From Methanotorris igneus Kol 5 (lineage in GTDB: Archaea; AGJL01; Methanococci; Methanococcales; Methanococcaceae): 64,000 bases of DNA. Below are positions 17,204 through 47,725 of this stretch, in pieces. Position numbers and translations under genes: made by a program. The notes under the pieces are model-generated. The model made no database searches. It was not told where the DNA came from and saw only the letters and a list, made by a program, of their open reading frames with translations. The stretch's first letter is position 1, and each line of letters starts with the position of its first letter. Where the stretch lies: the NCBI RefSeq assembly GCF_000214415.1, contig NC_015562.1, forward strand, positions 1,116,001 to 1,180,000. Reading direction: 5' to 3'.

Positions 17204-17326
17204 TATAGTCGTTCTACAAATTACGGCACTGTCCATAGTCCCAAATTTTAAATTTTAGGTAATTTAACAAAACTCTAATTTAAATTAGAGTTAGATTAAC
17301 TGTCATCTAATTGTAGAACGACTATA
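17204..17326. repeat. 123-bp palindromic MITE, TIR TATAGTCGTTCTACAA
   Basis: Ends TATAGTCGTTCTACAAATT and AATTGTAGAACGACTATA are inverted repeats, and the centre has a second palindrome ACTCTAATTTAAATTAGAGT. A copy in opposite orientation is at 47576-47699 and looks about 90 percent identical by eye. No coding capacity. Confidence 0.85.
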
Positions 17327-17611: not shown

Positions 17612-20011
17612 ATGGGACTTCTTGATAGAATTCAGAAGAAAAGCGTAAAAACTACTGCAGAACCTGAAACTAAAAAAGAAATGGAAAGAAAAGAAACAAT
17701 TAAAGATGCTGAGCCAAAAACTATAGAATCCAAAATAACACCCAAAATAAATCTTTCTAAAGACGCATCTGAAATAATATTAGACACTTACAGAGTTGCT
17801 ATCGGGGATATTGAAATGGATGTATTCATTAAGAAAAAAGGTAGTATGATATACTACGAAATCTCAGAACTTGATAAAATAAAACAGGCACTATCAAAAC
17901 TAACAGAGGATCATATAAAAACAATAAAATCAGATATTTCAGAACGTCTATTTACACAATTAGAACAAATTAAAGAATATTTAACAAATTTTGCTGACAG
18001 ACGTAATATAACATTTAATAAAGATGAATTGGATTGCTTAGCAAAATACTTTTACTTATTAATAGGAAGGTTGGGTTTATTAGAAGTCCCGTTAAACGAT
18101 CCAAGATTAGAAGAGGTTATGGTTAATGGTTGGAATTTGCCAGCATTCGTATTCCACAGAAAATATCAGATGTGTGAAACTAACATTGTTTTAGATGAGG
18201 GGGAATTAACAAGAATCATTGAAAATATTGCATATCTTGCAAATAGAACAATAGATGCAAGAACTCCTATGCTTGATGCATTCTTACCAGATGGTAGTAG
18301 GGTGAATGCAACAACACAAGATGTTACATTAAATGGGGCAACATTAACAATCCGTAAATTTACAAAAGACCCATTAACAATAACCGACTTAATTAAATTT
18401 GGAACATTTGATTTGGAAACTGCAGCATTTTTATGGCAAGCCGTTGAAGGATATTTTGGAGCAAAACCTGCCAACACCTTAATTGTAGGGGGAACAGGTT
18501 CTGGTAAAACAACAACATTAAACGTATTGTCCATGTTTGCCATGTATACAGATAGGATAATAACGATTGAAGATACACCAGAATTGCAAATTCCACATAA
18601 GCACGTTATAAGGATGATTACACGTCCTCCAAGACCTGGTGTTCCAGGATATGAGATAACCATGGATGACTTAATTAAAAACGCCCTGAGGATGAGACCT
18701 GATAGGATACTCGTTGGGGAAGTTAGGGGGAAAGAAGCCCACTCATTACTTGTTGCTATGAACACAGGTCACGATGGAGCATTGCATTATGATGCAAATA
18801 TAATGCTTAACAATGGCATGGAAAAGATCGGAGAGTTCTGTGAGGCATTCTTTGATGGAAACATTGAGACATACAAGAATCATGAGTATGTTGATATCTC
18901 TGATGAGAATATAACAATAAAGAGTTTAAACAAAAAATCCCTAAAATGTGAGAAAAAAAGAATCTTGAGGGTTTGGAGAACAAAATACAACGGCTATCTA
19001 TATAAGATAAAAACTGAAGATGGTGGGGAAATAGTAGCAACAAATGATCACCCATTTTATACTCTAAATGGAATAATATATGAGAAAAATGCAGAGTTCT
19101 TAAAATGTGGGGATTTCATTGCCGTGCCAACTAATGGCACTGATGAATTAGAGAAGTTCGAAAATACTGGAAAGATACTGAGAGATATAAGAGAACACCT
19201 AAATATGAATCCATCAGAATTGGAAGAAATTACTGGCATTAATTCAGAAACAATTAAGCAGTATGAAAATTCAAGTGTAATATCAAAAGATGATTTGAGA
19301 ACACTCGTTGAAAATATTAAGGAAAAATACTCAGAAAAATTAAAGTCAAACTACTATAACAAATCAAAAAAATTAAATGAAAGATTAGACAGTTTAGTTA
19401 CAAGTAGAAAGTTGAATCACCTATTGGCATTATGCAATGACATAACATGGAAAAGAGTAGTATCCATTGAAAAAGTAAAATATGATGGATATGTATATGA
19501 TTTAACCGTTGAAGATAACCATACATACATGGCTGGAAATACTGGGATGTTTTATGTTTCCAACTGCTCTGGGACATTACACGCAAACAGTGCTGATGAG
19601 GCAATATTAAGATTAATAAGCCCCCCAATGAACGTCCCAAAAATCATGATCACATCATTAAACTTCATAATAAACCAACAAAGAATTAGGAGAAACAAAA
19701 AAACAGTTAGAAGAATATTGGATATAGTTGAAATTGTAAGTGGAGATGGGGTACAAATTAGCAAAACCACATTGTTTGAGTATGATGGTATTACAGATTC
19801 CCTCATCAAAAAAGGTATCTGCATGTGGGAAGAAGAGGTTTGTGAAATTGCAGGAATTACAAGGGATGAATTGATGGACGATAGGATAAATAGGAAAAAG
19901 GTCTTAAAGTATATGGTGGACAACAACATCCATAAACTTGAAGATGTGGCTCCAATAATAATGGCATATCAAGAAGATCCGGAAAAATTATTACGTTCCC
20001 TCCACTTATAA
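17612..20011 (+). CDS. klbA: KlbA-type secretion ATPase containing an intein
   Basis: A 799-residue precursor of a VirB11/TadA/PilT-family ATPase that powers a type II/IV secretion or pilus machine at the cytoplasmic membrane. The N-extein has DARTPMLDAFLPDGSRVNAT, the P-loop GGTGSGKTTT near residue 293, and RILVGEVRGKEA. The C-extein resumes CSGTLHANSADEA and ends LHL. Excluding the intein (residues 390-651) the host protein is 537 residues. The N-terminal 60 residues are lysine/glutamate-rich linker. The next two genes encode the membrane platform. As I recall, M. jannaschii KlbA (MJ0781) has an intein at the same site. Confidence 0.95.
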   Translation: MGLLDRIQKKSVKTTAEPETKKEMERKETIKDAEPKTIESKITPKINLSKDASEIILDTYRVAIGDIEMDVFIKKKGSMIYYEISELDKIKQALSKLTEDHIKTIKSDISERLFTQLEQIKEYLTNFADRRNITFNKDELDCLAKYFYLLIGRLGLLEVPLNDPRLEEVMVNGWNLPAFVFHRKYQMCETNIVLDEGELTRIIENIAYLANRTIDARTPMLDAFLPDGSRVNATTQDVTLNGATLTIRKFTKDPLTITDLIKFGTFDLETAAFLWQAVEGYFGAKPANTLIVGGTGSGKTTTLNVLSMFAMYTDRIITIEDTPELQIPHKHVIRMITRPPRPGVPGYEITMDDLIKNALRMRPDRILVGEVRGKEAHSLLVAMNTGHDGALHYDANIMLNNGMEKIGEFCEAFFDGNIETYKNHEYVDISDENITIKSLNKKSLKCEKKRILRVWRTKYNGYLYKIKTEDGGEIVATNDHPFYTLNGIIYEKNAEFLKCGDFIAVPTNGTDELEKFENTGKILRDIREHLNMNPSELEEITGINSETIKQYENSSVISKDDLRTLVENIKEKYSEKLKSNYYNKSKKLNERLDSLVTSRKLNHLLALCNDITWKRVVSIEKVKYDGYVYDLTVEDNHTYMAGNTGMFYVSNCSGTLHANSADEAILRLISPPMNVPKIMITSLNFIINQQRIRRNKKTVRRILDIVEIVSGDGVQISKTTLFEYDGITDSLIKKGICMWEEEVCEIAGITRDELMDDRINRKKVLKYMVDNNIHKLEDVAPIIMAYQEDPEKLLRSLHL
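18779..19564 (+). other. KlbA intein, alanine-1 type, with helix-turn-helix insert
   Basis: The intein runs from Ala390 (ALHYDANIMLNNG) to Asn651 (MFYVSN), followed by Cys652. Starting with Ala rather than Cys/Ser is the hallmark of the KlbA inteins, which splice without the first acyl shift. Block B is VATNDHPFY and block F is YDLTVEDNHTYMAG. It is 262 residues, about 94 longer than the 168-residue M. jannaschii KlbA mini-intein as I recall it. The extra part is not a LAGLIDADG endonuclease but contains RDIREHLNMNPSELEEITGI followed by NSETIKQYENS (19180-19280), a good match to an XRE/lambda-repressor helix-turn-helix. Confidence 0.9.
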
Positions 20012-47454: not shown

Positions 47455-47575
47455 ATAATTTATAATTTTACTCCTTTTTTGTTACTCTTTTTTATTTACC
47501 CAATTTTTATTGATTTTTTGCATTTTTTAATAATTTTAAATCGATAATTTTATTAGGTATTTTTCACAGAGTGTT

Positions 47576-47699
47576 TATAGTCGTTCTACAATTAGATGAT
47601 AGTTAGCATAACTCTAATTTAAATTAGAGTTTTGTCAAATTACCTAAAATTTAAAATTTAAGATTATGGACAGTGCTGTAAATTTGTAGAACGACTATA
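47576..47699. repeat. Second copy of the TATAGTCGTTCTACAA MITE
   Basis: An inverted-orientation copy of 17204-17326, with the same ends and the same central palindrome ACTCTAATTTAAATTAGAGT. It lies 26 bases before the GXGXG-protein start codon. Confidence 0.85.
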
Positions 47700-47725
47700 T
47701 TAGTGCTGTTTATTTTGGTGGTATT

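Follow-up and report, generated by a model that had tools for sequence, protein, structure and literature searches.

The window analysed here is a stretch of 64,000 nucleotides from the genome of Methanotorris igneus Kol 5, which is a single closed contig of 1,854,197 bases. On its + strand, klbA (17612..20011) encodes a 799-aa precursor of the type II/IV secretion ATPase family (Pfam T2SSE, E 2.9e-40). The precursor contains a class 2 KlbA intein of 262 aa (18779..19564, +), for which the intein N- and C-terminal domains (TIGR01445/TIGR01443) scored over the cut-off and Pfam Intein_splicing matched at E 8.5e-31. Its borders are the codons GCA (Ala1, 18779-18781) and AAC (Asn262, 19562-19564), followed by the +1 Cys (19565-19567). 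The Hint-N half of the splicing domain (residues 1-118, 18779..19132, +) includes block B, TNDH, at residues 88-91, and the Hint-C half (residues 221-262, 19439..19564, +) ends with Ser261-Asn262. Between them, at the homing-endonuclease position defined by an alignment of 23 KlbA inteins, lies an insert (residues 119-220, 19133..19438, +). It is composed of an XRE-like helix-turn-helix (HTH) core (residues 128-183, 19160..19327, +), in which the recognition-helix position (residues 156-164, 19244..19270, +) has few basic residues, and a helical tail joining the HTH to Hint-C (residues 184-220, 19328..19438, +). Upstream of klbA lies a MITE-like element (17204-17326, about 123 bp) whose inverted ends read TATAGTCGTTCTACAA; across the genome, 45 matches reach E 1e-3 or better, 16 of which exceed 100 bp, and one is located at window positions 47575-47703.

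Class 2 (KlbA-type) inteins are defined, in PMC4031507, by Ala1, Ser G:6, Cys+1, Thr B:7, His B:10 and Asp F:4. All of the class 2 residues are present in the window intein (Ala1, T88 and H91, Asp241, Ser261-Asn262 and Cys+1), and, with its motifs intact, it is predicted to be splicing-competent. It is orthologous to the KlbA mini-intein of M. jannaschii (PDB 2jmz/2jnq; phmmer E 7.1e-34), with which it shares the insertion site, Ala1, the Ser-Asn end and Cys+1. In contrast to the window intein, the M. jannaschii protein has 168 aa and an empty endonuclease position. No Pfam match to the LAGLIDADG, Hom_end or HNH families was obtained in the window intein up to E=1, and a genome-wide scan gave no LAGLIDADG_3 match within klbA. 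Thus, the intein is nuclease-free, as a mini-intein is, but in place of a short linker it carries a conserved 102-residue insert with a predicted fold. A sequence-only reading of this DNA had given intein coordinates that proved exact to the codons of Ala1 and Asn262, and its view that an XRE-type HTH stands where no LAGLIDADG or HNH motif occurs is borne out. The extra block that it described does lie at the endonuclease position, although it comprises about 102 residues rather than about 94. The 168-residue length that it gave for the M. jannaschii mini-intein agrees with the corresponding locus in our set (L024, 168 aa, sequence as in PDB 2jmz).

Residues 131-183 matched HTH_19 (E 8.7e-6, 26.0 bits, cut-off 30.2) and HTH_3 (E 4.7e-4, 20.6 bits, cut-off 23), both slightly below the Pfam gathering score. 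Against a C-side profile made from the HTHs of nuclease-bearing inteins (13 seeds), the window HTH scored 27.3 bits, and the best of 1000 shuffles (986 reported) reached 11.3 bits; therefore, the match is beyond chance. The AlphaFold2 model of the whole intein, made with three rows of HTH-less relatives, had a mean pLDDT of 71.8, with about 48-65 in the insert, where helices were modelled at residues 130-141, 145-152, 156-164, 170-193, 197-207 and 210-218. For the isolated insert, the mean pLDDT was 61.2 and the HTH blocks reached 69-80. Foldseek ranked KlbA 2jmz first for the whole-intein model (1.9 A). For the insert, it listed mostly XRE repressors and controller proteins at E about 0.1 or worse, several of them at 1.6-2.5 A across 54-57 columns. 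The VIA Z values of the insert were 5-7 (maximum 7.2), and helical domains can score this high by chance; the absence of TliVMA from the structure-search lists for the isolated insert excludes nothing. At this modest structural confidence, an XRE-like HTH fold is likely rather than proven. The segment is predicted to fold, and the refuting outcomes named in the earlier reading do not arise as worded there, although this type of domain does occur inside known homing-endonuclease inteins.

In total, 23 KlbA inteins were excised at the GHDG / N-C junction; 22 come from the phylum, for which 36 genomes were covered, and the remaining one from G055. Full-length forms occur twice among the 23, in G003 (451 aa; L015/L049, from the same family as the window species) and in G055 (438 aa). 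In both, LAGLIDADG_3 (E 2.6e-18 and 5.2e-19, respectively) is followed by HTH_3 (E 4.9e-11 and 1.6e-8) and then by Hint-C. The HTH occurs without the nuclease in three inteins: those of the window, of its sister species G001 (83% identity) and of G009. The window and G001 inteins are both 262 aa long, and all 102 insert codons align (102/102). Plain mini-inteins are common, since 18/23 have neither nuclease nor HTH; two of these (G015 and G023) have apparently kept short traces. Judging from their domain content, the KlbA inteins at this one site form a decay series from full-length to mini-intein. In 13 of the 36 genomes klbA is uninterrupted, and G035 gave no match. In G010, four equal-scoring klbA copies (C1:1057683, 1063088, 1068493 and 1073898) are spaced by exactly 5405 bp, which represents either a tandem amplification or an assembly artefact.

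The KlbA intein query also matched in 47 of 94 Thermococcaceae genomes at 1e-20. Among the nine loci read first, two are mini-inteins, and the other seven combine a nuclease with an HTH and an extended helical tail, L161 among them ending prematurely within its frame. The domain order is as in G003 and G055, and the long tail after the HTH resembles that of the window intein. One further Thermococcaceae intein (G194, L178) has the HTH without the nuclease. A search of genome contigs for related loci gave nine with an alignment as query, three of them HTH-less Methanothermococcus KlbA inteins, and none with the single protein.

Selection on the insert was assessed from Nei-Gojobori dN/dS with bootstrap ranges between the window species and G001, the single sister species available. 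The insert gave 0.093 (0.039-0.193) at a dS of 1.25, which is near saturation, the Hint domain 0.128 (0.063-0.232) and the exteins 0.144. Independently of dS, pN was 0.108 in the insert vs 0.068 in Hint, i.e., 1.6 times higher. HTH-less control inserts gave much higher ratios, 0.789 (0.452-1.536) for G017/G021 and 1.271 (0.376-6.216) for G020/G007, as did the insert of the pair G009/G015, in which the HTH is missing from G015 alone, through loss (0.798, 0.45-1.49). The G009/G003 pair, with the nuclease in G003 only, gave 0.321 (0.158-0.544). The inserts of the G017 and G021 KlbA inteins (L011, L012) are Asn-rich and of low complexity, and their evolution is near-neutral (dN/dS 0.79). In the MCM/Cdc21 inteins of G045 and G067 (L081, L082), which differ from the window intein in host gene and site, the nuclease is likewise gone and the HTH kept, and the insert dN/dS is 0.122 (0.074-0.336). 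The extein figure for this pair (59% identity) was left out, as the two genomes also differ in another intein. The accessory domains (ACDs) of intact Thermococcaceae inteins gave 0.086-0.149 in 4/4 pairs. The low ratio of the window insert, near these values, indicates that, with the nuclease gone, the domain is held under a constraint similar in strength to that in intact enzymes, a comparison that rests on one species pair per gene with high dS. HTH-only inteins are thus recognised, by domain content, in three other lineages besides the window species and its sister.

The HTH insert is under purifying selection and is not merely decaying. The explanation that the HTH is a passive remnant, just not yet lost and without a role, would fit the family decay series, with its many inteins free of both nuclease and HTH. 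It is already disfavoured by the ratio of the insert, whose upper bound (0.193) is to be compared with 0.8-1.3 for the klbA control inserts, and by the equal length of the two inteins and the complete alignment of the insert codons. Within the insert, the sister sequences are 66% identical in the HTH and 89% in the tail; 19 of 56 HTH positions differ, and all 16 hydrophobic positions (16/16) stay hydrophobic. We consider a passive remnant rather unlikely.

Turning to where the HTH came from, a search with eight nuclease-bearing ACDs as a profile, none of them from the window genus, found the window insert among 304 ORFs at E 5.3e-9, a score to which the start of Hint-C contributes in part; a profile of 13 ACDs found it at E 2.8e-8. 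The match extends past the HTH and across the tail to the start of Hint-C. Pairwise, the window insert resembles the G003 ACD weakly (z 2.3; 47/2000 shuffles as good), and the insert of the sister does so at z 4.6 (2/2000). The C-side profile does not discriminate, since 28.7 bits are reached by an ordinary XRE regulator encoded in this genome; therefore, position and same-site relatives carry as much weight as the score in a claim of descent. Like an ACD, the window HTH lies between the nuclease position and Hint-C and is similar to the HTHs of nuclease-bearing inteins, a similarity that is unspecific with respect to ordinary XRE proteins.

This lack of specificity is what would be expected if an XRE HTH had entered a KlbA mini-intein independently and had never been part of a homing enzyme, and the ACDs themselves have been suggested, in PMC8966425, to be captured from transcription factors. 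Such a gain is unlikely given that the position equals that of the HTH in the nuclease-bearing KlbA inteins of G003, G055, G308 and Thermococcaceae, and that the match continues through the tail. The deletion route is seen directly in G009 beside G003, which are 77% identical over G003 residues 336-451. Because full-length same-site KlbA inteins of other archaea have the order splicing half, LAGLIDADG, HTH, splicing half, the window HTH is best read as an accessory domain that would have remained after deletion of the nuclease core. The earlier suggestion of a remnant of a homing enzyme agrees with these relatives, which carry LAGLIDADG plus an HTH at the corresponding place; however, the HTH is the accessory domain and not the nuclease, and under purifying selection the word remnant alone is too weak.

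It should be noted that in GlmS inteins (L005, G000:C1:1510141-1511148; L150-L152) an XRE-like HTH precedes LAGLIDADG, on its N-side. Homing inteins thus carry accessory HTHs on either side, which leaves the side of origin uncertain. An N-side origin of the window HTH was rejected, as a 5-seed N-side profile gave 11.2 bits vs 10.8 for its best shuffle, compared with the 27.3 bits of the C-side profile, a comparison that is unequal in seeds (5 vs 13). Several candidate relatives were set aside: the intein that the window genome carries in UDP-glucose dehydrogenase (L002/L038), in which no HTH was seen; L008/L047, which is an ordinary XRE regulator and not an intein; and the Pyrococcus-like MCM inteins of G082 and G314, which matched continuously over 1-255 and were not counted as HTH-only, no HTH being seen in their inserts. 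In an IF-2 intein (L110, G025:C1:309080-309841), LAGLIDADG is seemingly lost and an HTH-like helical part kept, by eye against L041/L042; it was dropped from the HTH-only count as the profile did not find it.

The net charge, summed over those residues that align with the HTH section of the profile, was used as a proxy for a basic, DNA-gripping surface. Identical cores were deduplicated, and 31 partial matches that left profile positions 11-62 uncovered were excluded. The window (-4) and G001 (-6) have the two lowest values among 43 intein HTHs and therefore lack the basic core of ACDs. With a nuclease, the cores range from 0 to +12 (37/37), and without one they are -6, -4, 0, +1, +2 and +3 (6/6), the MCM inteins having 0 and +1. 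The difference (Mann-Whitney p 4e-4) is not corrected for relatedness, and the points are not independent, the six HTH-only cases representing only four lineages. The HTH of the nuclease-free G009 is still at +3, and that of G003, which otherwise shares with the window intein the site, the HTH position and the class 2 residues, is basic (+5) and accompanied by LAGLIDADG_3. In Thermococcaceae, a typed pattern found the HTH in 34 of 40 KlbA loci, 33 of them at +4 to +8 and G194 at +1. Positive charge has thus been lost from the window HTH and that of its sister. Conserved hydrophobics combined with changed charge are the pattern expected of a domain whose fold is maintained while its surface is free to vary, and DNA binding by the window HTH has probably been lost.

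These charges bear on the explanation that the HTH still binds DNA, so that the excised intein would act as a small repressor-like protein on klbA or other genes. In its favour are the recognisable XRE HTH and the purifying selection, as well as the HTH-like ACD of TliVMA, which, according to PMC8966425, affects the choice of cut sites; there, the isolated ACD seemed to add no overall DNA affinity. Besides the acidic cores, the HTH_3 score falls from 42.9 bits in G003 and 35.3 in G009 to below the gathering score in the window, and K160E and Q161E distinguish the sisters inside the recognition helix itself, where G001 has gained acid relative to the window. Regulation of DNA by the HTH, raised in the earlier reading, is accordingly disfavoured, and we regard continued DNA binding as quite improbable. 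Split homing, in which the HTH intein would team up with a LAGLIDADG nuclease encoded elsewhere in the cell, would find targets in the uninterrupted klbA genes but is very improbable, as each of the 14 LAGLIDADG_3 matches of the genome falls within an open frame of 697-1618 aa, klbA not being among these frames, and no short free-standing LAGLIDADG_3 frame was seen in the genome.

Based on the above, we suggest the following history, to which we give about an even chance as the best overall explanation: the nuclease core was deleted, and the HTH persisted as a structural or splicing partner with its DNA binding gone. The ancestor would have been a mobile class 2 KlbA intein bearing LAGLIDADG, whose HTH accessory domain, lying between nuclease and Hint-C as in the nuclease-bearing relatives, presumably aided the search for DNA. 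The nuclease core would then have been deleted in frame, earlier than the split of the window species and its sister, and the accessory domain retained along with the helical tail. At present, what keeps the HTH in place may be its fold; during splicing, it would most likely serve the Hint halves as a partner in structure or folding, and the insert could help the two halves fold or remain aligned.

HTH accessory domains of homing inteins are already published, for TliVMA and PI-TkoII (PMC8966425). The TliVMA ACD, which is compared there with the 434 repressor, likewise lies between nuclease and Hint-C in an archaeal intein, but TliVMA has an active nuclease and a different host gene. PI-TkoII also has an HTH-like accessory domain, but within a homing intein with a full nuclease. 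WhiA offers another parallel, a homing-endonuclease domain plus HTH turned into a cellular protein; unlike the window intein, where the HTH stands alone within an intein, WhiA retains the two domains and acts as a free-standing transcription factor (PMC11701221). In the usual homing cycle, the nuclease region decays and disappears after targets are fixed, and the mutualism between nuclease and Hint is reviewed in the same source as the TliVMA ACD (PMC8966425). Our literature search, limited in scope and partly in the texts it covered, found no report of an intein keeping the accessory HTH alone.

In the window intein, the catalytic core is gone and an accessory domain is kept under selection similar to that on the splicing domain. 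Retention of the ACD is indicated by dN/dS in two unrelated host genes, by the KlbA and MCM pairs. A selected HTH-only insert makes the proposed mutualism between splicing and inserted domains directly testable in a protein of 262 residues, and the insert site may offer a folded, tolerated place for engineering regulated inteins. Beyond the structural role preferred above, we tentatively consider that the ACD has been domesticated inside the intein, the basic DNA binder having become an acidic module under selection that governs class 2 splicing or makes it possible, e.g., as a temperature- or partner-dependent KlbA switch. If this domestication is true, the HTH-only inteins of MCM and of two further KlbA lineages would have followed the same route in parallel.
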